Source: Antedon mediterranea
Taxonomy: Eukaryota; Echinodermata; Crinoidea; Comatulida; Antedonidae
Direction: 5' to 3'
Assembly: GCF_964355755.1 (NCBI RefSeq)
Contig: NC_092672.1
Span: 38,374,501 to 38,438,500, forward strand
Length of the DNA stretch: 64,000 nucleotides
In this document: positions 3,961 to 42,655 of the stretch, in pieces
Numbering within the stretch: the stretch's first letter is position 1
Layout of the letters: every line of letters begins with the position of its first letter
Translations under genes and position numbers: made by a program
Notes under the pieces: generated by a model
Databases searched by the model: none
What the model saw: the letters and a program-made list of their open reading frames with translations, nothing else
Told to the model about the DNA's origin: nothing

Positions 3961-4662
3961 AAAATTACAATGTTAACGTGATTCTTTTTAAATAATGAAT
4001 ATTATTTATTATTTTAAATTATTATTCAATTTAAAATGAATATGCAAACTTTAAACCTGACAATCAATATATTGCTTTTATTTCATTAAATTGATTGAAC
4101 CAACTTTTTAAGAAATGTAGGGTAAATTAATGTTGGTGTATCATAGGCATATTCCTAAACACATTGTCACATGGGACCTGGTTTGTTTAAACATATATTA
4201 TTTGTTTTAGTACTGTAGCAAATATGTCTAAAGTACTGTTTAAAATAAACTATTATATAATTAGTTTCTTTTTCAAATTTTGGTGGACTAAGTTAATTAG
4301 TAGCTAATTTTATAACAATGGTCATATGGACAGCTTAACAGTATCATATCCTTAAAATTACTACATTTGTACAATTATTTATAATCATAGCTAAATGCAT
4401 TCATGTTTATACCAATTTACACGAATCCATAATGTTAACCAAAATGGTTTATATATTTTGTAGTTCTTATTCTATTCTGAGGTACTCTTGATAGATATTT
4501 TGTAGTTCTTATTCTATTCTGAGGTACTCTTGATAGATATGTTGTATCTCTGGCTGTTTGTATGGAGACAAGACATAAGTGAGTTCACACAATAAAATAC
4601 TGCTTAGTTCAGAAAGCAATACAAGATTGATGAAAACAATTCAGTTTCAACTTGACGTTGTA
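3961..4662. other. AT-rich stretch with a two-copy 41-bp repeat
   Basis: Two direct copies of a TTGTAGTTCTTATTCTATTC unit at about 4461-4541; nothing else supported. Confidence 0.5.
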
Positions 4663-5112
4663 CAGTAGGCCTTATCTGACGTTGTACAGTAGGCCTTATC
4701 TGACGTAGTAAAGTAGGCCTTACCTTACGTTGTACAGTAGGCCTTACCTTACGTTGTACAGTAGGCCTTACCTTACGTTGTACAGTAGGCCTTACCTTAC
4801 GTTGTACAGTAGGCCTTACCTTACGTTGTACAGTAGGCCTTACCTTACGTTGTACAGTAGGCCTTACCTTACGTTGTACAGTAGGCCTTATCTGACGTTG
4901 TACAGTAGGCCTTATCTGACGTAGTAAAGTAGGCCTTACCTTACGTTGTACAGTAGGCCTTACCTTACGTTGTACAGTAGGCCTTACCTTACGTTGTACA
5001 GTAGGCCTTACCTTACGTTGTACAGTAGGCCTTATCTGACGTTGTACAGTAGGCCTTACCTTACGTTGTACAGTAGGCCTTACCTTACGTTGTACAGTAG
5101 GCCTTACCTTGC
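4656..5112. repeat. 24-bp minisatellite, about 19 copies
   Basis: Unit GTTGTACAGTAGGCCTTACC plus TTAC. Because 24 is divisible by 3 it creates spurious open frames on both strands (KVRPTVQR on minus). Variant units with GTAGTAAAG at 4705 and 4921 are exactly 216 bp (9 units) apart, showing a higher-order duplication. Confidence 0.95.
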
Positions 5113-6521: not shown

Positions 6522-9500
6522 CTGTCAGAAAAACAATCAGTAAATAATTTAAAGTATTTTTTTAATAGTTTTAATACATTTTTTCTGAAATTAATATTAA
6601 AAACTGAAACAAATATATTTCTAGGTTTGTTTTGGTATTTGGTCTAACTAAGGTGTTAACATTTTAAGTAAAAGATATGATGTATTAAGTATATATTTAG
6701 CATCTCTGCAAACTCATAATTTAATTAAAAATCAAATTGGATGAATATTTTCAGACACTGTCCACAATAGTCAGGGGTAATATCATGATATTTCCTTTAT
6801 CTCACCTTTGATACTGTTTCTAATTCATCAACCAACAAGTGACTAGAGTTCAAATCGCGTTTCAATGTTACATTCTCATGACGTAGAAGCTTTATTTTTT
6901 CTTGTAAATGTCTTAGTAACTTGACAGTGTTGGCGTCTTGTGGCGATGGACTAGCACTCCTGTCCTGTAAGAAACAAGAATAGGCAATACATTTTAGATG
7001 TATGTTGCACTCAGTAAAACTACAGTTGAACACCTTTTTTATTTTTTTATTTTTTTTTCAATTTAATTTATTCAATTTATGATCAATCAATCAATATTAA
7101 GAACTAAAGTGCTTCACCAATCTTATATCAAAGATAGTGTGATATAATAACTCTCACTTTTTTTCGTGAAAAGTACAAGACTGCACATGGCATAATTATT
7201 TATTTCTAGGTAAATGAATAAATTAATTAAATGAAAGAATCTTACAGAGTTTGCTGATCTTCTAAGTGGTGTGTGATGTGAATCTTGCATCCTCCTAAAA
7301 AAAGAAAAAAATAGATGATGACCCTATTATGGATACCGATTGAGAAGATTTGATTGAGGCTATTGAGGGAGGACACAACAATTCCCAAAAGCCCCACATC
7401 GTATTCTCAAAGCCAATTTTCCACTGCGCATGCGTATAAGCTGACGCTTTTGATTCGCGCAAACAAATTCGCCTAGTGGCAAATCGGCTTTAGAATGCAT
7501 TTTCCAATAATATCTCTTTTATACATTTCTAGGTATACAACAACTGATCACATTATATAGGAATTTATATTGCTAAATATAATTGTTTGCAGTTTTATAA
7601 ATAAATACTTTTTCAATTTTGAGTTAGTGACCGACCGACCGACATAGTGAGCTATAGTTACGTTGCACGTGACTAAAAATTGATAACCAAATGCTAAAAT
7701 ACCAATGTTTTATCCACATAAAACTTTTCATTAATTAGTACTAATATCAAAAACTTACACCTGTAATTCTTTGTTAAGTTCTTCCTCAAACTTCTTTGCC
7801 ATTTTGAGAGCTGTTTCCTCCTTCCATAGTGTCATTCCTTTTTGTACTTGTATCATCTCTTTGTCTTTTTCAACTAGTCTTCCTTGTAATGCTGATTCAG
7901 TAGCTTTTAGTTTGGCCACAGTCTGCTGTAAGGATTCTATCTCATCTGTATGATCCTAAAAAACAACAGGTTTTAAAAATCAAGTTGAATATAAATTGAC
8001 ATTTTTATCTCTTATAAGGAAATCAAATTTGGATCCACTTTTAATATTATATTATTTATTTAGTATTATTATCTACCACTTTACAAATAGCAACTCTTAG
8101 TAAGCTGTCTAAAAAATAACTAATAATATGTCAGAAGAACATTGAATCTTTTATTTTGAAAGTTTATTTAGGGAATTAAATGGAGATCAAATTTATTACA
8201 TAATACCACTAAAATAAAAAATAAATAAACACCATATCTAGTCTGTCTTTCATCGCTTGTAAACTTGAAGAACTTTCTAAAGATCTGTTTTTCTTCTCCT
8301 TTTCCTAATAAAATTGAAGTCAAAAAAGAAGTGAAAAACAAAACGTAATAAATAACAAATATACACAAATACTCTACTGAATGCAAGTCTTACAATTTGA
8401 AACTAAAAACAATTAATACATACCCGTACTTTACTTGCTTTTAAGTTGATGCGCTTTTGTTTATCCAAACTTTGTTTTAATTCTTGCAGCTTGTTGCGCA
8501 AGTCTTCGTTGCATCCTTTTATGTTACCAAGGGCAGACATCAACTGGACTTTGCTGGAGATTTCTGTGTCTGACCCACTGGATGATGTTTTGCCATTGGT
8601 CATTGCTCCCTTATGTGCGCTAAAAAATGATTAAAAATCGGCTAATTATTAGATTTTCTTTTACAGTTGATATGGTGAGTTAAATCGACCACTTTCAATG
8701 AACAGCTTACCCTATTAAGACTTTCTTGGATGATACACCCAGTGCTTGGCTAGTTTTCTTACATTCTTCATTCATTTCCATAACTAGTGACCTGCTAGTT
8801 CTCTCATAATCCCTCAATACTTCTCTTTCACGTTCTTTGTTCTTTTGTATTTCTGATTTTAATATTTTTATTTCTTCATCTTTTGCTCTTTCAGATTCTT
8901 TCAACTTTTGTAGTTCTTTTGTCTTTTCCTGAAAAAAAAATGTATTGTACATCAGATTAATGGAAATATTAGACAGTTGCAATGTGGAAGTCAGAAGTGT
9001 GTAGGTTTGCAGTAGGTCTGCTGCTATACAATAACACGCCAACTGAATTATAAATTGCAAGCAAAGATTTTTAAATATAAAAACGTTTAGTGATTGAAAT
9101 GTGACAAAGCATCCTCACTCTTAATCCTTCTGTACATGTTTTTAATAAGTCCACACTTCTTTGCAGTTGAATTTGAGTTTTCAATAAGAGTTCACTTTGA
9201 TCATAACAACTTGTTGTTGAAATGGAAGAGTCTAGCTTCTCCTGACTCAAATTTAATGTAACATCATGCTCATCATCTAAAACATTGAATGGAACATGCT
9301 CATCATCTAAGGCATTGAATGCAACATGCTTATCATCTGAAGCATTGAATGGAACATGCTCATCATCTGAAGCATTGAATGGAACATGCTCATCATCTGA
9401 AGAATTAAATGGAATATGCTCATCATCTGAAGCAGTTCCATTTGTACAAAATGTGGAATTTTTGCTTTTATTATCATGGACACCCATTTCTCCGCTATTA

Positions 9501-11527: not shown

Positions 11528-14500
11528 CTTTGTGATAAAAATGGTGCATGACATGAAGCATGAATATGAGTGCTCTAAAAACCTTTGACCAATAAATGAC
11601 CTGCTTTGTAATTAAAAAACAAAATTTAAATGGCTCTGCATACAGTTATGAATAACTTGTTAAGAGAGAATTCTTTTTGTAAAGAATGTTTCACAACTGC
11701 CTTCAGTCTTATAATAAATAAATGACCAGTAATATAGAAGCAATGCTTACTATTAATGAAGTCAAATTAGAAAATGTGCTTTTCTTTTAAAATTTAAATG
11801 ATCAAGTGCACCACATGGATATATAGCTATGACAATGAAAGGATAATAATGACTCACATCTTTTAGTGAATTGATAGCAATTTGGAGCTGGCTTGAGTAT
11901 TGCTTTTCTTTAGCAATATCCGCCTTCAACTGTGTTGTTGCCCATCTCTCTTCATCATTTTTTTTTATCAATTCTCTCTTTAATGACTTTTTAGACTCGT
12001 CTTCCCAGATTTCCCGTTCTTTCTTAATTGCATTCTTAATCTATATATATATATATATAAAGCAATTTGAAAATCATGGAAAAGCTGCTGGAATATTTTG
12101 CAATATACATTAAAAAAAATGGTTGTTATATGTAGTAAGAAAAACAAGTACACACCATCCATGTTAGTAATTAGCCAGATTAATGTTATTACCTGGTCAA
12201 GTGCATCCATGTTAGTGATTAGCCAGATTAATGTTATTACCTGGTCAAGTGCCTCCATGTTAGTGATTAGCCAGATTAATGTTATTACCTGGTCAAGTGC
12301 CTCCATGTTAGTGATTAGCCAGATTAATGTTATTACCTGGTCAAGTGCCTCCATGTTAGTGATTAGCCAGATTAATGTTATTACCTGGTCAAGTGCCTCC
12401 ATGTTAGTAATTAGCCAGATTAATGTTATTACCTGGTCAAGTGCCTCCTTGCGTAATTTCTCTCCAAGTCCCCTGGTGGCCTTCTCCTGTTCTTGTAGTC
12501 TAGACTTCAGTAGATCAATCTCTTCTACTTTCTCCTAAAACATCAACATTCATAAGTGTTATGATGATGAGTAGTTTGGTATTTTAATCAACTCATTCAT
12601 AAGTGTTGTGAATATCCTTGCGCAAATCAGTATACAATACTGTATTATATCATGGAGTTTATAGCTCCATGATTATATACAATAGGATTTTCAACCCACA
12701 GGAGGAAGTGTTTAAAACTTGACAAAACTGGAACTGTACCTTGAGGTCTTCTTCATATTTGTTTGTTTGTTGCTTAAATGTTTCCTCTTGGTTCCTTACA
12801 ATATCTTGTCTTGTTGCCACCATCTCTTGTCTCAACTGAAAATGAACAAAATGTTGCCAAATTAATAAAATGTGTTTCTAAATACTAGGTTAATCATAGA
12901 GCCATTATACAAACCACAAAGCTAATTTAATTAATTGATTGATTGATTGATCACTTTATTTCAGAATAAAAATTCTATATATACGACAAACAGTACAAAA
13001 TGGAAAATCACACTAAAATAAGATTTTCTCCCATTTAGTAAAGAGATTTGAAGATCATAACAGATAGTAGTAATACACCTAACAAGATCATTTTCACTAT
13101 TCTAAACACTTATTCTAAAACCATAGACACACTATAAATGTGTATGCCTACCTTTCCAAGCTCAGATTCTTTCTCCTTTAATAAGTTGTCTCTCATTTTC
13201 AGTAAAGCAGTTTCTTTGTTAATTTCATTATATTTCTCAACCCGTTCTTTTTCTTGAAGAATCTGTTTACCATTTTCCTGTGATTTTGACAAATCTTCCT
13301 GAAGGGCATAGAGCTTGTCTCTGAGAGCATCATACACCTCTTGTTTATCTTTAATTGTTTTATTCAGAGCATCTATCTTTTGTTCTTTTTCTGTGTAACC
13401 TTTCTCCATCTGTTTTTTCTCTTGTTTATGAGTTTTCTCCATATTTTCTATTAATGCATTTTTCTCCTGATGATGAAGAGATTAAACATAAAATTAAAAA
13501 ATTAAATTAGAGCATTACGTTCTGAAAGTTCATTGTACTGCAAGTAATAAGAGGGAATCTTCAAGTCCACTTGAATAAAAATAATAAATAAATGTACATC
13601 GGAATAGAAACACATTTACAAAATATTGTGATGTATTTTGTTACAACAATATACTTCCTTATAATAAATAACAAACATGTTTCTTACAGCCAGTTGTTTC
13701 ATTGCTTTGTCTTCTAGATCATTCACTTTTTCTTCATATTCTCTTACTTTCTCTTCATGGGTGTATTCTAATTCTTCAATTTTATGAAGCTGTTCTTCAA
13801 GCTCCTTAGACAAAAAAAATAACAAAATTAAAATGTTGTTACAAACAAAGAACCTCTCTTTAAAAGTTTAATCCTACAATAAATATACATATATAAATAT
13901 ATTATATAAAAAACAAATTAATACAATAAAAAAAGAAACAGAAAAACATTAATTCATGTCTTTGAACAATTTAAAAATAAAAACTTAATAGCTCACAGTT
14001 ATGTATTTATATAAAAATAGATTATTTTTTCAATTACAAGTGATATCCATAATATCTATTTTTAGTAACTTAAACACAAACAACATCCAGATAGCTTGAA
14101 CAATACAAGAATACTCAACATTCTATTAAAATGTATTGAATTAAAAAATATAAAATGTATAACATTAATCAATATAAGATAATGCTTTATCAATTTTTTT
14201 TAAGGATTTTTTTTTTACAGTACATAAAAAACTCAGAATTAAGTTAAGGTTACCTCTGTTAGTTTTTCCATTTTTTCCCTAGATGTTTTCTGCTCAGAAA
14301 ATAAATCTTGTTTAGCTAGATTCAGTTGTCTCGCTAACTCATTTTTTTCTAGATCCGATGTTACCGCATCATTCTTACATAATCGCTCTTTAAGTTCATC
14401 CCTTTCTTGGACCACAGAAATTATCTACAATTTAATTATAGTTATTTTAAATCATAACATCTATTTTAGAAAAATACTTTAGAAAGCAGAAGATAGGAGT

Positions 14501-18016: not shown

Positions 18017-21000
18017 TTAAAAACAAAATATTGTCATAAAAGTTGTTTGACAGACACATCTAAAACAAGACATACATTTAATCATTACCAGAGGATTGCT
18101 GGATATATCAGAATCATTGTTGACAAATAACGTTAATGTAGAAATTAAAGACGACGCAGTTGTGACATCATCACCGATCAGTGGTGGCGCTGGAAGAAGC
18201 TGGAGGTAGATTTGTGAAGAGAGTGGTTGAATATCAGATACCTTATGTTGGTATGAGGGAACATGTATAAAACATTCAGATCGGAAAGTCTCATTTACAC
18301 ATTCATTCGGTTTGATTTCCATATTAGATATTTTGGCAGGTTGATCAATCAATGTCTGGTGATGTTGTGCCATTGAATAAGAGAATGCTCTTGTTATACC
18401 AGGACAACTCGAATCGTCTGAAGAGAAATCTAAGATTTCATCACAAATTTTATCAGTGGAGTCATCTGTGTCTTCAATCAACCAACTGTTGTTGACGGTG
18501 TCAAAACTATCTTTAAAACTTTCTCTTTTAAAATGATTCTGTCTTGATGATTTTGATGGTCTTACAGTACTGAAGTTAGAATTTATGCCTTCATTGGTTG
18601 CATAGCTATTTTGATCACAAATATTTTCTGGTGCAGTCTTTTTATTATATGGAGAACTGGTTGTAGAATCTGTGTCTGAGTTTGTAACATTGTTATTGTT
18701 AAGTCGAAAAGAAGAGCCTGGACTCTTCATAGTGTTTACAATGCAACAGCTTCTTGGACAATGACAACAGTGAGAGTGATCATTAAATGTTGGTGACATT
18801 TTTTGCGAAAGTCTGCTAGAATAATTATGATTGTTATCAATTCCTCTGGAACCTTTGGTGAAGCCGATGTGGTTATTGCTACTGTAGCTATTGGATGACA
18901 TACTTTCACAAAAACAAGGTTTACTTTGAACATATCTCTGTTTCTTCTTTCTTTGTCGTTTACTTTTCTTTGGTCTTGAAAGCATTTTGCCAGTTTTTGT
19001 TTGTCTTCTTTCAGATGGTGAATTGGGAAAAACCTTACCGTTTAAACCCAAATGATTACCCATACTAAAACCATTCATTTCTACAAACTTCTTTGTGAGT
19101 TTTCCTAGTCTTCTTTCTTGAATAACTGTACTAGGAACTAAGTTCACATTGCCAGTGTTAACTTTCAGTACAGGATTAGGAACTGGAGAGTTACTACTGG
19201 ATGGATACAACCCATCAAATAACCCTGGATCAGGAATCAAAAGTCGTTTATGCTGAGACGTTGGTGAATCAAGAGATTGTGTAATGTCAAAAAGATGGTC
19301 AACATCTGCTTCAACTGGCTCTGTGACTCGTCCATTTGTAATTTTCATCAAAATTCTGTCAAAATATTCTCCATAATCCTCATCCTCATTTTGAACAGTA
19401 TCTTCATAAGTGAGAAGTGAGGAGGTATTACAATTGCAACTTGACTCACTCTTTGTCTCACATTTTGTTTGTGAATATGTAGGCTCCTTCTGATCAGGTG
19501 ATGGGGTATCTGCACAATTAGATTTGAAATCTGGAAGTGGTATTCGACAGTCATCTACATCAAATGTTTGATCACCAGAAAATACACTCAAATTCTCATC
19601 AAATCGTTGACAAAATGTTTCATTTAAACTTGACAAGGATGGTCTACCAGATGAACATTCAAAAGAAGTTTGAGTTTGAGTAACTTTTGTTGATTCAATA
19701 ATCTCAAAATTTTCATCCTGGGTTTGGGTTGCAATAGAAAATGTTACAAAATTGTGAGGCAGTATTTTACTATTTCTTTTTGTGGTATATTTGTATTGAT
19801 CTTCTGTGTTAATTTGAGCATCAGTTTTTGATTTTTCAGATTCATCAATTGCAGTTTTGTTATCAACAGATTGTTCAAAAGATGTACTAAAGCTTTGGTG
19901 CAACGACTTCTGCCCTTCGTCTTCCTCTGGAAGCGTTTCAAGAGAAAGAGGAAGTGAATGCTGTTTTCTAAAAAGCTTTAATCTTCTTTCTTTTGAACTT
20001 GTGTGATCTCTCCTTTTTCTGTTTTCTATTTTCTGTGGTAAACTTTTTCTTCTTTGGACAATAGAATCAGAGTTTGAATCAACAACACACTCTTGAAGTT
20101 TTTTCACAACAGAATCAATATCAAGACAACCAATTGTTGCTGCTCTCTTAAGTTTCTTTCTCTTGTCAACTAATGCTGTTAAATATGAATTATTATTATT
20201 ATTGGAAGTTGAACTTTGAACTTTACTAGTTAGTCCTTTATTTTTTACACCACCATTTATTAGTTCATCCGTTTCAACAACATCACAAACATCAAAACTA
20301 TTACTGTTATCATTTCTTTTATCTTGTTTGATTTCATGTTCTTGCATAGCATTAGACTGCAAAGTTTTACTCAATGATGTTTCCGTTTTGTCAGTATTCT
20401 CTCCTTTACTTTCTGTCTTCATAGATAGTTTCCATCTATTGCTAGTACTTTGTCCAGGTAGTCGTACATTGAAGGCACGTTGCAGCATTTTCTGAACTTG
20501 TTCAGCACGTTTTTTGGCCTTTTCTGCCTGCACCTTTGCTTGCTTCTGCCGCAGAGAAATCATAAATCTTTCTGGGACACCAGTAACCTGTCCACCAAAT
20601 CCTAAATCCATTAAAATCTCCTCTGATGGAACAGGATTGTTGTACATCATTTGGCTCATGCCACCTGGATTTAGTGCTCCCAAGGACGCCTCCATCAAAT
20701 ACCGAGCCTCTAAGGGCAATTCACTGATGTCATTGACATGATTCTGCTTACTCTGTTCTTCTTTAGCAATAGACATTGCTTCTTTATAAAAATCACTGTA
20801 GTTGGGTTTCGGCAATAATGAAGAATCAATGTTTTGTGGCTGGTTGTCTGTAGGGTCCAACCTATCTGCACATGAACTCTCCACCCATTCTGCTACACTC
20901 CAAGTAAGATCAGGTTCTCCTAAATCTAAAGCTTGACATAGAGAACTTGCATAGCTACCACTACTTGAGGAAGGACGGTTATATTCGATTATTGGTTTAG

Positions 21001-21212
21001 ATAACTTTTCAGGGACACCATATTCTTCATAATCGTAATAATCATTGCTCTGCCATTGACCCGTTTCAAAACCAACTCCGGAAAAACTTTTTCCTTTTCT
21101 TGATTCAGTATTGGAGGTTGCTGATTGGCTTCTTAAACTCTCAGTTTCAAATGTTGAGATAGACTCTTCTGAGGTAGTAAATCTTGATAATTGTCGTCTT
21201 AAATGGTTAGAG
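18017..21212 (-). CDS. Large terminal exon, possible ITPRID/TESPA1-family protein
   Basis: TTTTCAG acceptor above 21212, phase 2 in, open for 3.2 kb to TAA at 18017-18019. AATAAA signals on the minus strand at 17946-17951 and 17897-17902 fit a terminal exon. A donor-like CTG/GTAATG at 18089 could instead remove the last 23 residues. Its codons read as one continuous low-complexity protein with no frameshift. Confidence 0.85.
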
Positions 21213-24200
21213 CTGAAAACCATAAAAACATTATAGTTATTTATCTTAAAATATTTAAAAGCTGAAATATTTGAAATAAAGATTTGTAATGTATCTATAT
21301 ATAAATTTACGTAAGGGCAAAATTCGGTAAATCGCGCCTTACTTCTAGAATTTTCACTCGATGGTATGTAAAGTTGGTTCGTACTTTCGGTACTGATTTT
21401 AACCGCCTGATGTAACCCTGTTTACTAATTAAATTGAGTTAGATAATTAGTTATTGACGATTAAAACGAATTTAGGTTCAACGATTTGCCCCAAATAGGG
21501 GTGTTTTCCGATCGTGGAATACACTGTCTAATGGATGTCCGTCTTGAAAAATACCCGCCAAAAAAATGCGAGGAGGCTTCGCATTTTTCTATCTCCTCCT
21601 ACGATAATTGTTTTTAATAGCTGAAAACCGGTTGAACAGCTAGAGTACACCATCATAATGTTGAAGACAGGCCGATTTTCTTTAAAAAATACTATTTTGA
21701 TAGATTTAATATACGATTATGCAAATGTATTGATTTGCGATGAATGGAACATCCCAATCTCTCAGTCTGCCAGAGTTTGGTTTAACACAAGTACTGTAGG
21801 TAAATTTATGAGCCCTTGGTTTAACACATACGGTAGGTAAATATATGGGCCCTTTGAGAATAAACTTGCAATACTTTGACAATACTGTAAATACCTATTA
21901 ACTATTTTTCATTTGAATCGAACATTTCTTACTGTGAATGTTCGTACTGTTAGATGTAATATAAAAATATATACAAATAAACTTTATTACTGAGACTGTG
22001 GATAGGCTCTACTGTTAGATATACAAATAAACTTTATACTGACAGTTCCTTCTCAACGTTTGTATTAATAATTACCAAAAATATAAACGTCGTAGTGGTG
22101 TATCGTGACATGTACTTTAATATTTCAATCGATTATGACAGTGACAGTTTTAACAAAGTATTAAATCGCAAATGTTTTAGGCCTACTGTATTTAGAGGTA
22201 TATTATTTATAGGCCTATAAAACATGAACAAAATATTTCGTTACTCAGTGGATAAAGAATATATTTAAAAATTGTTCCTCTTTGTACCTATCCGCTTTCC
22301 CATCCCTCAACCCTAATGTTACATAGCGAGGAGGCTTCGCATTTTCCTATCTCCTCCTACGATAATTGTTTTTAATAGCTGAAAACCGGTTGAACAGCTA
22401 GAGTACACCATCATAATGTTGAAGACAGGCCGATTTTCTTTAAAAAATACTATTTTGATAGATTGCTAGAGTACACCATCATAATGTTGAAGACAGGCCG
22501 ATTTTCTTTAAAAAATACTATTTTGATAGATTTAATATACGATTATACAAATGTATTGATTTGCGATGAATGGAACATCCCAATCCAGAGTTTGGTTTAA
22601 CACAAGTACTGTAGGTAAATTTATGAGCCCTTGGTTTAACACATACGGTAGGTAAATATATGGGCCCTTTGAGAATAAACTTGCAATAGGTTCGGAAAAT
22701 GTTAAAAACCAATTTCTATTATTTGAATCGGTAAACAGTTTCCATTTATTATACATTGATAATGAAACATGAAATATTCCTATTTATGTCCCTCGAGGTT
22801 CATTACAATTTATATTTAGTAGTCCCACGGACTTCATCTTAGCCACTCCCCCGAGTGCTAAGGCCAAATTTATGATACCCTACTTTCTATGTAAGTTTAG
22901 TTACAGTTAGTTCTTGATAATACAACGAATTTAGGTTACACCCTTCGGCCGCGAAAACGTTTCTGTACAAATATGATACCGATTGGCTTTATTTCATTCA
23001 ACAGCGACCATAATCTCGCCAATTACAGGATAGATAAACTATTTTATTATTGATGTGCTTATAAATTAAGACTCATGTAAACAGCTTGATTACATCATTT
23101 TACAGACAAACGAAACTTTTTTAAACCTACTGTTTCAATAACTGAGTATAATACTGTATACGTTTTCATAAGTAAGTGCATATACATTTTCGTGTTTTCA
23201 TTGACGAGATTGTAATAGTAACTTCAGTAACTATTACAGTACTTATTTATTATACGACACAAGACAATTGTATCTGACAGGTACGTACATTATTCTAAAA
23301 AATAAGTCTAGATAGATCCCTTAGGCGTCATAAATCACAGGCCAACAAATCAGTACTCATGACAGAAATTCGACCCAGTTTGGTTCACACAAATGTTTAC
23401 AGGAAGTTCAACACCACAACCGATGATTTGCCCTAAATATTTAGGTAGACTACAGTTTAATTTTTCACTGAATAGGAGCTTGAATTTCCGATTTCCATTT
23501 CGCAGAATGTCTAGGTCTATTTATTTAGTTTGGTTCTTATAATATATAAATACAATCAACTTTATTACTGCGGTTCCATCACCACCACCACGTGCCGCCC
23601 AATTCCCGTACATACATTTCCATTTCTCCCTAATTTCTTTAATCCACATAAATTAATTGTCCTTTATGGAATCCAGTATTGGTTTTGTTGTCTCTATTTC
23701 TGAATACCCCAATTAGAGGGGGACACTTCCGTTTTTGTTTAGTGTCCCAAAAAAGTCCCCGTCCGTGGATTCTACTGTATTCGAGAACCATCTGTGAGCA
23801 CCCCTAGATGGTACGCGAGCGAAGCGAGCGTGCCATCTAGTGGTTACAATTGAACTTAATGTTTCCAACATGGTTCAGTTAATATCTACTGTAGTAAATG
23901 AATTTGAATAACAAAATCATGTTTAAAATTCTAATAAAGATCTGCATTCATGCAATGGTTATTGGACAACTAATTCAACTAATATCTACAAAATGAAATT
24001 TAAAAAATAATATATATACTCTACATTTGATATATACAAAACAAATTGGGTACTAAATCACACTAATGAATATGATACAATCATTTCCAATAATATAAGA
24101 CGATACACAAAGAATCTATGTATAGATGAATGATTGACATCATAAGATCTAATCTACTTTATTCTTAATAAAACACAACACTAAGAATCAACTTTAACTT

Positions 24201-37600: not shown

Positions 37601-39782
37601 ACCCCAGACCAGTATCGATCGTACTCTCTAGAGAGCGCTGTTTTCTATCTAAAATCAAATCACAAAATGCATCGTCATAACTAACATCATTGATAAATAA
37701 AAATGCGGTGAAATCACCAAAATGAACATAATGTTTGTAATAATTTAATTGGAGAATAAAATTGTCACTTTATGGCATTATTAGTTGTAATTTTGTACCC
37801 AGGGGGCCCCGGGAGACCAGTCTTGTTCACTGATTGGGCCACACGGGTAAAATATTGAAAATAACATCCAACAAGGTATAAGCTAAAATTATAATACTTT
37901 ACTACTAATAGTATTTTGTATTCATGTGTTTCCCAGACAATCTGCTAAATATTTACCTTTCCTCTTCTTAAGTTGGCCGGTGCTGTTTTGTGAAGTTGAT
38001 ACTGGTGACTGTTTTGACTCCTTTTTATCACTGGATTGTACAACTGGATAGGTCTATCGATAATAATGTTTTATATTGTACACATTTGAAAATCAAAGAA
38101 AAAAATAAAATTTTGTTTAAATAGCAGTTTTTGTGTTTAAATTGTTATCAAATTTGTATCCCTCCTTCACTGTTTCCAACATCTTTTTTCCATCAGGGAC
38201 ACAATAACTATATCCTCTTTATATAAATCATACATTTTATTGTTTCTTAGACCACAACAAATATTGTGAGTGGCACAGATTCAAAGGTCAATAAATAAAT
38301 AAATAACAATAAATTATTTCTGAAATATGGCTGTACCTGGCTGATGAGTGCATTGAGTTCCTTATCAATGCTGTCCAGTATGAAATCAGTATGGTCAACA
38401 TTGACCTTTTTGACCTCTACTCCATATTCACTTTCATCACTAAATTCAGATTCTTCTTCTTCTTCATTAGTTGATGCTTCCTCCTTGCTTTTATCTTGCT
38501 CCTCTTCATCCGTCAAGACATGGTCACTCTCAGAATGTATTTCTGGAAAACAGTTTTCAATCATGTTAAATTGTTATCAGATTTATCAAGTAAGTAAGTA
38601 AGTAATATTTATTGCTCTCCAAGAACAGTACAAATTTATAAAACAGTATAATGTAAATGAAATAAAAAGAGAAACATTAAATATAATAAAACAAGACTAA
38701 ACTAGAAAATAAGCATGGAAAGCAGGGGATGGCCCTTTAAGCCCAGAGGCTTGTTTCCAAAGGGGTTATTTCCTAAATGAATAATTAATTAACTGTTAAA
38801 CTGTGTTGGAAAAGCATCATTAATGACAATAATAATGACTATGAATGTACTTTTAAGTTGTATTATCTAAAGCTCTGTCTGACACTATCAAACTTTATGT
38901 GACAAAAAAAGTGATGTGCCCAAATATGGACATGATGATATATCACTACCATCTTTGGGCATACCACTACCATTTTGGACACATCACACTTTTTTGTCAC
39001 ATAAAGTTTGATAGTGTAGACAAGGCTTTAGTAATAATAGCATGACAAATGAGGTTGATGCCAATTAAAATAAAGATTTCATTAAATAATGAAGGTGGTT
39101 GCAGTGGTTATATTGATCTCAATTAGTTGTAATGATAATTATACATTGTGACTAGAACAAAAATGATGACAACAATAATATTATCTGGCTAACAATGAAA
39201 CGACTCCTCCTATTGACATTTGCTGCACTGATGGGAACAATATTATTTGATACTGCAGTACTTCATGGTGAACTCTACAATATTATTACTACATCTTACA
39301 CACTGGCATAGTTTATTTTTAGAGTCAGTACATCAAAGTCGTCACACATTTTCAATCCACTCACATGTGGCTCATATCATCTAATAACTGATCACTTAAA
39401 CTAATTTTACACTTGACTGACTTTAGACAACACCAACTGAAATATTACACTAACTTAATTCCACAAAACTGTATTTTAGCTGTTTTCGTTTTCTTAAAAA
39501 GCCCACTATTAAAACAATGTAATGTACAATCTACTACCTGCATTTGGTAATCTACTACCTGCATTTGGTCACTTTTTATTTTAAAGATGGCAAATCCAGA
39601 ATTGTATAATGGATTGTGGTAAATTGTCAAAAATCACATATTTAATCACAATAGATTGAGAGATTGAAGAGATCCAAAAATAAGCAGGATGTCCATGTAA
39701 TTGATGTAAATGTGAATATTCTCATACCTTCTGTTACTTCTTCCTCTTCACTCCATTCAGCCTCTGCATCAGATATTTCCAT
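28559..39782 (-). CDS. Unidentified acidic/serine-rich protein, 10 exons
   Basis: I do not recognise this gene. Ten exons joined in phase give 657 residues from an ATG at 39780-39782 (MEISDAEAEWSEEEE). The N-terminus is very acidic (runs of E/D at 38.3-38.5 kb). A conserved-looking stretch follows (DTGLGSGSPEEAIAEN, then MSHRRAMQFAETLLKEES). A lysine-rich stretch, a long S/D/E-rich region with a basic patch (RPRRKRSSKQKRSK), and three related modules containing VPSDVESVQ, IPSDLDSVK and QSVESLS come next. No membrane segment or signal peptide is visible. Six consecutive exons are phase 1-1. The last exon ends in phase 2, which fits the large exon at 18017-21212, so this may be the 5' part of the neighbouring gene. 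The composition suggests a disordered, possibly cytoskeletal or nuclear protein; that is inference only. Confidence 0.72.
28680..30896. other. Intronic AT-rich sequence
   Basis: Part of the 3.4-kb intron between exons 9 and 10 of the acidic-protein gene. No exon or clear element seen. Confidence 0.4.
30897..31133. repeat. Imperfect AT-rich tandem repeat
   Basis: Degenerate copies of TATGTCTTTAAATAATGAAT. Confidence 0.7.
31178..31302. mobile_element. AAGCTCTGTC MITE, copy 1
   Basis: Shares AAACTAGTTTGAC, the TGATGT...ATATGGTAGTGATATG core and the TTTGATAGTGTAGA terminus; one end truncated. Confidence 0.75.
32054..32155 (-). CDS. Acidic-protein gene exon 9
   Basis: Phase 1-1. Acidic: DLLNNDSDNDSGKG and SDDRHSDDEDSLL. 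Confidence 0.65.
32364..32494 (+). repeat. G-rich tandem repeat, quadruplex-prone
   Basis: About three units containing GGGGAGGGGCTGGTGGGGG with many G3-G5 runs. It is in an intron on the strand opposite the gene's RNA. Confidence 0.85.
32525..32610 (-). mobile_element. Degenerate tRNA-derived SINE candidate
   Basis: Minus strand shows AGCTTAGTAGTTTG (A-box-like) and GAGTTCAAATC (B-box-like) about 20 bases apart. Confidence 0.35.
32627..32725 (-). CDS. Acidic-protein gene exon 8
   Basis: Phase 1-1. QSVESLSNLSDST followed by FTSFFKHRQ resembles the exon 7 modules. Confidence 0.65.
33068..33295 (-). CDS. Acidic-protein gene exon 7 (two related modules)
   Basis: Phase 1-1. Two internal modules about 40 residues long share a (V/I)PSD(V/L)(E/D)SV core and end in charged FxxxxxR/K helices. 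Confidence 0.7.
33296..34827. other. Intronic sequence without recognised features
   Basis: Lies between exons 6 and 7 of the acidic-protein gene. AT-rich, no exon or repeat seen. Confidence 0.4.
34826..35884. mobile_element. AAGCTCTGTC MITE, copy 2, split by a LINE
   Basis: Left piece 34826-34845 and right piece 35760-35884 reconstitute one MITE bounded by TA. The gap is filled by a LINE fragment, with ACTAT present on both sides of the insertion. Confidence 0.75.
34846..35759 (-). mobile_element. 5'-truncated non-LTR retrotransposon (CR1/L2-like)
   Basis: On the minus strand it reads LILPYLSYCNIVWANTY, QKKAIRIISGAPPRSHSS and SKLNLLKLIDINLMQ, the C-terminal part of a LINE reverse transcriptase ORF. 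An open frame runs to 35290, followed by a 3' tail of TTGAATTGAATTG. It is flanked by ACTAT target duplications and is dead by 5' truncation. Confidence 0.85.
36016..36840 (-). CDS. Acidic-protein gene exon 6 (largest)
   Basis: Phase 1-1, 825 bases. S/D/E-rich with a basic patch RPRRKRSSKQKRSK and an LPEYMYLKKP segment. An in-frame stop lies just past the GTACTC donor; I take the donor as real because every neighbouring intron is also phase 1. Confidence 0.72.
37180..37275 (-). CDS. Acidic-protein gene exon 5
   Basis: Phase 1-1, donor GTGAGT. Lysine-rich linker (SRKTKSIKLQKKKG). Confidence 0.62.
37505..37648 (-). CDS. Acidic-protein gene exon 4
   Basis: Phase 1-1. Encodes STIDTGLGSGSPEEAIAEN and MSHRRAMQFAETLLKEES, the segment most likely to be conserved in this protein. 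Confidence 0.72.
37795..37860. repeat. Dispersed GC-rich repeat fragment
   Basis: CAGGGGGCCCCGGGAGACCA in an otherwise AT-rich intron; looks like part of a dispersed repeat. Confidence 0.3.
37957..38053 (-). CDS. Acidic-protein gene exon 3
   Basis: Phase 0 in, 1 out. Encodes a K/S/Q-rich linker ending TGQLKKRK. Confidence 0.65.
38337..38542 (-). CDS. Acidic-protein gene exon 2
   Basis: Phase 1 in, 0 out. Very acidic, ending VDHTDFILDSIDKELNALIS, a likely helix. Confidence 0.72.
38589..38775 (-). mobile_element. Retroposon 3' tail remnant
   Basis: On the minus strand an A/T-rich 3' region ends in a (TTAC)n tail (plus-strand AAGTAAGTAAGTAAGTAA). Confidence 0.4.
38868..39030. mobile_element. 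AAGCTCTGTC MITE, copy 3
   Basis: Complete copy with both termini, bounded by TA, with two ACTACCAT subrepeats. Confidence 0.85.
39031..39727. other. Intron without recognised features
   Basis: Contains only a short local duplication (ATCTACTACCTGCATTTGGT twice, about 39529-39568). Confidence 0.5.
39728..39782 (-). CDS. Acidic-protein gene exon 1 (start codon)
   Basis: ATG at 39780-39782 and donor GTATGAG after 39728; phase 1 out. Encodes MEISDAEAEWSEEEEVTE. Confidence 0.7.
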
Positions 39783-40617: not shown

Positions 40618-42655
40618 TCTATATATAAATTTACGTAAGGGCAAAAATCGGTAAATCGTGCGTTATTTCTAGAATGTTTACGCGATGGTATATAAAGTTG
40701 GTTCGTACTTTCGGTACTAATTTTAACCACCTGATGTAACCCTGTTTACTAATTAAATTGAGTTCGATAATTAGTTATTGACGATTAAAACGAATTTAGG
40801 TTCAAAGATTTGCCCCAAATAGGGGTGTTTTCCGATCGTGGTATACACTGTCTAATGGATGTCAATTTGAAAAATACCCGCACACAATAATACGAGGACG
40901 CTTCGCATTTTCCTATCTCCTCCTACGATAATTGTTTTTAATAGCTGAAAACCGGTTGAACAGTTCGAGTACAGCATCATGATGTTGAAGACAGGCCGAT
41001 TTTCTTTAAAAAATGCTATTTTGATACATGTAATATACGTTTTTACAAATGTATTGATTTGTGATGAATGGAACATTCCAAATTATTTGGTTTAACCATA
41101 GAGGTATAGATTTAGATTTATGGGCCCCCTTGGAGAATAAACATAAATAGTATTGCAATGCTGTACAATACTGTTAAGGTATTGTTAGATTATAAACATA
41201 TAATATACAAATAAATAAACGTTATTACTGACAGTTGCTTCTCAACGTTTGTATTAATTAATAATTTAAAAATATATAAACGTACGTAGTGGTACGTGTA
41301 TCGTTACATGTACTTTACTTTTTCAATAGTATGGAACGCCGTTTACGCAACATTTTGATGATATGAATTTTATGACGCGATATGTGAATGAAATGCATCG
41401 ATATGAATTGAATGGCGCGATATATTAATGAAATGTTTTGAATTGAATGCTTTGAATTGAATGTTTTGAATGAAATGTTTTGAATTGAATGTTTTGAATA
41501 AAATGTTTTGAACGAAATGTTTTGAACGAAATGTTTTGAATGAAATGTTTTGAATGAAATGTTTTGAATGAAATGTTTTGAATGAAATGTTTGAATTGAA
41601 TTGAAAAGTCAAACTATTGGCGGCGTATGTCATTCCCGCTCGCGATTTTGTTTTAACCTCTTGGCCCTAAGCCTGGGTACCCTCATCTCCTTTCCACGCT
41701 TCATCAATATGGATCCTTTACAAAGAATCCTAACAGACCTGAAACATTGGAATACATATTTCCGAACCCAGGTCTGTTAGGATTCTCTGTAAAGGCAGCG
41801 TGGAAAGGAGATGAGGGTACCCACGCTTAGGCCTAAGAGGTTGAGAAAAAAATCGCGAGCGAGAATGACATACGCCACCAATAGTTTGACTTTTCAATTA
41901 AATTCAAACATTTCATTCAAAACATTTCATTTAAAACATTTAATTCAAAACATTTCATTCAAAACATTTCATTCAAAACATTTCATTCAAAATATTGCAT
42001 TCAAAACAATTTATTCAAAACATTTCATTCAAAACATTTCATTCAAAACATTCAATTCAAAGCATTCAATTCAAAACATTTCATTCATATATCGCGCCAT
42101 TCAATTCCTATCGATGCATTTCATTCACATATCGCGTCATAAAATTCATATCATTGAAATGTTGCGTAAACGGCGTTCCATAGTAATAGACTATGACAGT
42201 GAGAGTTTTAACAAAGTATTAAATCGTAAATGTTTTACTGTATTTAGTGGTATTATTATTTATAGGCCTATAAAACATTTAAAACAATATTTCGTTACTG
42301 AGTGGATAAGAATATATTTTAAAATGTTTCCTCTTTGTACCTATCTTCTTCCCCCATCCCTCAACCCTTAATGTTACATACAAAACACAAATTGGGTTTG
42401 TTTAAATGAGTCCAAATAAAAAAATTTGACTCATTTTGTTTCTCTCTCGGAAGTAATTCCCAGGGTGCTAATTTTAGCTGACTACATAAATCATCGTGTA
42501 TATTTATTCGTTTCTGTAAACGACAATGTATTATAGTCCTGCAGTACGTACCTTTGAAATCTCCATTTTTTTCTCGCTGGAAAATACTGTGTATTCGAGA
42601 ACCATCTGTGGGCACGACCTAGATGGTACGCGAGCGAAGCGAGCGTGCCATCTAG
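40618..42655. mobile_element. Non-autonomous Helitron, copy 3, with nested fold-back element
   Basis: Same TCTATATATAAATTTACGTA start after an A and same CTAG end before a T as copy 1, with the terminal hairpin at about 42621-42653. About 0.85 kb of its length is a later insertion (41332-42180). Confidence 0.75.
41332..42180. mobile_element. Fold-back (long inverted repeat) element, 849 bp
   Basis: Arms of about 405 bp are inverted copies: TGGAACGCCGTTTACGCAAC at one end and its complement at the other. They contain tandem TTGAATGAAATGTTT repeats and a short loop near 41740-41775. TAGTA lies directly on both sides. No coding capacity; frames reading SFKTFHSKHFIQNI are repeat by-products. Confidence 0.88.

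Follow-up and report, generated by a model that had tools for sequence, protein, structure and literature searches.

Minisatellites that lie across exon-intron boundaries are already a known kind of repeat, described in amphioxus and in human paralogues. The amphioxus 'mirages', as presented in passages of PMC3087553, are duplications of intron-exon boundaries that resemble minisatellites and occur in Adh3, with units of 10-72 bp, and in globin genes. Many of their units carry AG/GT signals, one gene has 6 and 3 repeats on its two haplotypes, and reverse-transcription PCR suggests that mirages do not interfere with regular splicing. The loci named in the passages concerned are Adh3 and the globins BflGb6 and BflGb9 (PMC3087553), together with TnC and PGBD5 (PMC3902484), and the name has so far been applied to cephalochordates. 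In human segmental-duplication paralogues, variable repeats of minisatellite size (~30-bp units, ~4 copies) are described at exon-intron boundaries in parts of PMC2812944. Here we analyze a 64,000-base stretch of an animal genome (hereafter, the window), in which a 48-bp unit, present six times on the minus strand, multiplies the end of a predicted coiled-coil exon together with its 5' splice site (donor). The array is real, it recurs in kind at other exon ends of the genome, and it is probably passive.

The array resembles the amphioxus mirages in several respects. Its units span a predicted exon/intron boundary including the splice signal, its 48-bp period falls within the 10-160 bp range given for mirage units in the passages at hand, and its inner copies 2-5 are homogenized, with edge copies 1 and 6 excluded. 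As in amphioxus, several genes of one genome are affected: 7 of 49 loci here, among the matches listed. Two differences stand out. One array of this genome holds 29 matched donors, and amphioxus is described, in the same passages, as having both donor-side and acceptor-side cases, whereas no clear acceptor-side case appeared here in 25 loci among the matches listed. The human repeats share the minisatellite size and the position at an exon-intron boundary; they differ in that the sections of PMC2812944 concerned report putative intron gains, whereas in our model the window intron was already present. Intron gain by AGGT duplication, as outlined in part of PMC3443670, is alike in that a segment holding AG|GT is duplicated and the units are bounded by GT...AG, and is unlike in that the window intron would have existed already and been extended from its donor side. 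We rejected the window intron as such a gain, as the modelled intron continues beyond the array into unique sequence and reaches its acceptor at 12041/12040. Two further parallels were set aside. Recursive splicing ratchet sites carry a pyrimidine-rich acceptor before AG|GT, which is absent here (ATGGAGGCACTTGACCAG precedes GT in the unit), and the earthworm metallothionein minisatellites, in the portion of PMC12783039 that describes them, are intronic repeats and not boundary arrays.

A six-unit array at a predicted exon end

Tandem Repeats Finder placed the array at 12158-12448 of the window (period 48, 6.1 copies, 98% matches), and unit alignment resolved six complete 48-bp units on the minus strand at 12161-12448. 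Each unit comprises 16 bases like the exon end and then the donor, with 32 intron bases in all. Copies 2-5 are identical; compared with them, copy 1 is one base off and copy 6 two bases off, and only two sites vary in the whole array. The window contains exactly six instances of the motif CAG|GTAATAAC, in 48-bp steps, with the first intron bases at 12432, 12384, 12336, 12288, 12240 and 12192 and the same donor 9-mer in 6 of 6 copies. Donor 1 (12425-12435, minus strand) is the exon-proximal copy and, by analogy with six other loci, the proposed site of use; donors 2-5 follow with CAG starting at 12387, 12339, 12291 and 12243, and donor 6 (12185-12195, minus strand) is the intron-most copy. A 22-base piece of the unit matched the window six times, against none in 100 shuffles, while a 441-bp query over the array found one match in the assembly (354 Mb, 18 contigs). 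The GC content of the window is 0.317, and that of assembly samples 0.27-0.39; Branchiostoma has 41%. A search with COX1 gave no match. Amphioxus has 18-20 chromosomes, a number that the 18 contigs fit, and a larger genome of about 500 Mb (PMC12500494).

These results confirm what the initial annotation had read from this region, namely an exon end and donor multiplied six times in a 48-bp unit of 16 codons without a stop. All six donors are in frame with the next exon, and each of donors 2-6 would add 16 in-frame residues from an open unit. Three details were corrected. The feature lies on the minus strand. The exon does share its last bases with the unit, but the exact match covers 16 bases (GGAGGCACTTGACCAG) instead of 12, and the added segments are in frame as proposed, except that the fifth reads ...NMDALDQ, not ...NMEALDQ. 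The annotation had also suggested scoring the six sites: with a position matrix all reach 6.58 bits, their 9-mers being identical, and the gene's other donors range from 3.1 to 10.0 bits on that matrix. Consequently, each of the six identical donors could in principle be used.

The host gene was modelled by hand on the minus strand as 11 exons from 17382 to 11396, joined in a single open frame of 543 residues; the modelled protein is mostly coiled coil, as judged by eye, and further possible exons, also read by eye, extend to about 5200. The exon that runs into the array (EKVEEIDLLKSRLQEQEKATRGLGEKLRKEALDQ; 12433-12534, minus strand) is predicted to be 102 nt long and to begin and end in phase 0; its acceptor is TTTTAG and its donor CAG|GTAATA. 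If donor 1 is used, the modelled intron covers 392 nt (12041-12432), and the next exon, IKNAIKKEREIWEDESKKSL..., lies at 11858-12040 behind the acceptor TATATATAG|ATT, with a coding score of 22.2 bits. The exon at 12534-12433 is the best-scoring candidate ending at its donor, with 16.3 bits when excluded from the training set. By comparison, 16 plus-strand AGGTRA sites from 23-64 kb of the window, which are not known donors, score 3.9 bits at most, and the best candidates at the gene's nine other donors score 8.7-40.4 bits with their exons inside the training set. At 8 of 10 donors, the modelled exon length is that of the best candidate.

The exon is known from prediction, and the coiled-coil protein gave sub-threshold matches only against Pfam and none at 0.001 against PDB. 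A search of NCBIfam with two neighbouring open reading frames only returned one match, below threshold, and no retrocopy of the spliced junction was found in the genome with up to two mismatches allowed. A host protein with no named homologue in Pfam or PDB is what one would see if the exon prediction were wrong and the array a common repeat with no relation to a functional donor. We regard this as very improbable, given that the exon shares its open frame with ten others, has a coding score of 16.3 bits and terminates precisely at the donor.

Neither the position of the array nor its open frame is unusual by chance. Arrays with a period of at least 15 cover 6,229 of the 64,000 window bases, about 9.7% (one 30-base row not counted), and 5.7% of the gene model. 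One of the 21 modelled splice boundaries falls in an array, against 2.0 expected at the window coverage; since the sequence is so rich in minisatellites, a junction inside an array is not a rare event. Of the 3534 48-mers taken from the remaining introns of the gene, 944 lack a stop in a given frame, and an open unit with a length divisible by three is thus expected at 0.267 x 1/3, or about 9% per locus. As it is about at chance level, the open unit taken alone is no evidence of use.

Donor arrays at other exon ends

The assembly was scanned for pairs of donor motifs with a start-to-start spacing of 21-58 bp, and 48 loci were taken from the matches listed, to which the window locus was added. 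Left out of the matches listed were C1:16088304 and a dispersed family (C1:6711558, 6737313, 6740369 and 6911055, and C3:1612965). Exon ends were called from the coding score before the first copy, a check by eye for a duplicated junction, and PDB for the recognized ones; the score alone lacked the power to separate exon-end loci from the others. Exon ends before degenerate first copies may be missed, which makes the negatives soft.

In this way, arrays starting at an exon end were judged present in 7 of the 49 tandem-donor loci among the matches listed. Besides the window locus, these are an exon of DHX8 (L008; 37 bp, 22 matched donors; exon match), one of TDP2 (L011; 31 bp, 29 matched donors; PDB homologue), one of TRAPPC11 (L015; 42-bp consensus, 11 matched donors; PDB homologue), an unnamed exon (L018; 45-50 bp, 5 matched donors), a second unnamed exon (L038; 17 bp, 23 matched donors; best PDB match E 0.38) and one of a maltase/alpha-glucosidase of GH31 type (L045; 43 bp, 2 matched donors; homology). 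Nine of the 48 loci exceed the 3.9-bit comparison maximum, and five of them were counted as exon ends: L038 (21.6), L011 (10.1), L018 (7.7), L015 (5.0) and L008 (4.7). The DHX8, TRAPPC11 and GH31 exons are low-scoring (L045 reaches 2.6) and were retained on homology.

Among the remaining high scorers, L041 (13.4) and L040 (7.4) were rejected as exon-end arrays, as each has a coding-looking exon but a second motif that is no duplicate. L049 (6.2) was rejected for its position: directly upstream of its duplicated AGGTAATA motif lies what we take to be 5S ribosomal RNA-like sequence. L044 (4.8), a 42-nt candidate, was not counted. At L034 (3.9), which ends a homocysteine S-methyltransferase-like exon, the second copy is not a convincing duplicate, and the locus was left uncounted as ambiguous. 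L024, L025 and L028 were negative as exon ends, with scores of -5.1, -5.6 and 2.1.

These arrays point to the donor that their genes would use. In all six other exon-end arrays, no later matched donor is both in frame and open. When L008 is joined through its exon-proximal donor, a stretch of 149 residues aligns to DHX8 without a gap (E 3e-88), and gapless alignments to PDB homologues also run across the donor-1 junction in TDP2, TRAPPC11 and the GH31 gene. Thus, if these four genes work, frames and gapless homologues together imply that the exon-proximal donor is the one used.

Two observations concern the TRAPPC11 locus itself. Its array (L015 263-777) takes up nearly the whole intron, leaving a few tens of bases between its end and the acceptor. 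The donor of the next TRAPPC11 exon (minus strand, about 170-60) is seemingly duplicated once, reading CCTCCAG|GTAAGTTT ... CCTCTAG|GTAAGTTT.

We make no claim that donors seed arrays, as donor-bearing pairs show no regular excess over the reversed motif. Across scans, donor-motif against reversed-motif matches numbered 49 vs 30, 303 vs 1989 and 229 vs 334, with 112 vs 1657, 29 vs 157 and 22 vs 8 in further scans. A permuted motif gave 1 match and, in reverse, 114, and an acceptor motif gave 151 against 80 for its reverse. The acceptor-side scan used one acceptor motif and covered 25 loci among the matches listed, two dispersed families being counted as one copy each, and none of these 25 clearly showed an array that extends into the start of an exon. 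Two of them, L062 (15.0) and L064 (5.9), have coding-looking exons and lack a duplicated unit. The contrast between 7 of 49 donor-side and 0 of 25 acceptor-side loci has a one-sided Fisher p of 0.048, with the motifs differing and the loci, among the matches listed, judged by eye. It is no more than suggestive, and it fits the idea that copies on the donor side are hidden in the intron.

Origin of the array and choice of donor

We consider it probable that the minisatellite arose by duplication of the junction within a pre-existing intron, that splicing takes the exon-proximal donor (12433|12432), and that the protein is unchanged. The founding event would have been a tandem duplication of the exon/intron junction, presumably by joining two short, imperfectly homologous sequences, GGAGG at the exon end and GGATG in the intron, 48 bp beyond it. 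At its exon-side edge the array has AAGGAGG and at its intron-side edge CATGGATGG, which would have been separated by 48 bp in the founder; where copy 5 meets copy 6, the sequence GGATGC mixes both edge sequences. Such a mix, judged from few variable sites, is what one would expect if the first duplication lay at copies 5/6. Later expansion would have made the inner copies uniform, and the uniform inner and distinct edge copies suggest growth from inside. With the first donor in use, the remaining copies would leave with the intron, and the array would be tolerated because a donor-side duplication then stays intronic. For the window gene, the frames and homologues of the other arrays are the best available guide, and by that analogy donor 1 is the expected choice.

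The initial annotation had proposed, instead, that the locus multiplies proteins. Several donors would be used, giving 0-5 extra hydrophobic 16-residue segments, and the copy number of an allele would change the set. The 48-bp unit is indeed open in the exon frame, and its six identical donors all keep frame with the exon that follows; the window locus is the one among the seven exon-end arrays where every donor keeps the frame without a stop. The array is also near-uniform, so its length is probably still changing, and, for human boundary repeats, transcripts that retain the repeat have been published (in the parts of PMC2812944 concerned). Against this stand the six comparators in the same genome that require donor 1 for an open frame, the chance of about 9% for an open unit, and the passages on amphioxus mirages that report no interference with splicing. 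In addition, the hydrophobic insert would fall in the middle of a coiled coil. Its 16 residues are rich in V/I/T/L/W and are not a multiple of 7 or 3.5, and it is plausible that it would break the coil. We therefore find the use of several donors unlikely, and rate as slightly less likely still a ladder of 0-5 cassettes of 16 residues in a coiled-coil protein that is tuned by copy number and shifts with minisatellite length. As a device for protein diversity, the locus is weakly supported.

A different outcome would follow if transcripts spliced at later donors were spliced again, unit by unit as zero-length exons, until the same final mRNA was reached. Every unit has the form GT...AG and every unit junction reads CAG|GT, and a branch-point-like TACTAAC is found in copies 1 and 6, followed in copy 1 by 18 bases and then by the unit's AG|GT. 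However, the ATGGAGGCACTTGACCAG ahead of the unit's AG is rich in purines and offers no pyrimidine tract. Copies 2-5 carry TCACTAAC, and in copy 6 the TACTAAC is followed by unique intron sequence. At L038, a unit of 17 bp would be too short for a lone intron. We hold such self-correcting relay splicing to be highly unlikely.

Several points weigh against exon-proximal splicing of a duplicated junction, which we nevertheless favour. The exon shares no more than 6 nt with its unit at L015, and at L018 the 10 shared nt match imperfectly; coding score is the sole support at L018 and L038, and three homologue-backed exons (L008, L015 and L045) score low when taken alone. At the window locus, the identical donor 9-mers mean that motif strength gives donor 1 no preference, RNA folding did not separate it from the others (unpaired 0.29 vs 0.22-0.33), and, unlike the six comparators, later donors carry no frame penalty. 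Experiments with duplicated donors often favour the intron-proximal site. A search of the open-access literature on competing donors found nothing. Finally, many of the human boundary repeats are described, in the sections of PMC2812944 concerned, with alternative transcripts that keep the repeat in the exon. This precedent led us to raise slightly the probability given to the use of several donors, and to lower slightly that of junction duplication with exon-proximal splicing.

Surroundings and significance

Other repeats and frames were observed in the window. Upstream of the coiled-coil gene lies an open frame of 1,134 residues (18017-21421, minus strand), with a stretch that we presume to resemble the ITPR-interacting (KRAP/TESPA1) region; no Pfam match to the frame passed the threshold. 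A second in-frame array, probably coding, lies at 9265-9434 (minus strand; 30-bp unit, 5.7 copies) and encodes SDDEHVPFNA-like decapeptides within an open frame of 251 residues. At 4655-5110 (minus strand), 19 copies of a 24-bp unit, many with AAGGTAAGG, lie downstream of a probable last exon (DLLKKHHSVPKHSHSYGKLP*), and could be a junction array of the 3' untranslated region. Two 14-bp tandem arrays with mutually reverse-complement units and 40-bp flanking repeats occupy 41360-42152, possibly a mobile element of fold-back type. Short arrays with ~21-bp units lie at 38940, 39528, 49502, 55914 and 62636, several of them with a CACTACCATATTTGGG-like core.

In the open-access literature, judged mostly by listing entries, we met no account of an animal other than this one in which arrays recur on the donor side. 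With up to 29 donor copies in one intron, these loci amount to a natural experiment in the selection of one 5' splice site by the spliceosome from a set of near-identical ones. In DHX8, TDP2, TRAPPC11, the GH31 gene and two other exons, the reading frames imply that the exon-proximal copy would be chosen. If these genes work, several long runs of near-identical donors still resolve to the first one. Moreover, if the animal is not a lancelet, these loci would extend mirage-type arrays that recur in several genes to animals outside the cephalochordates.
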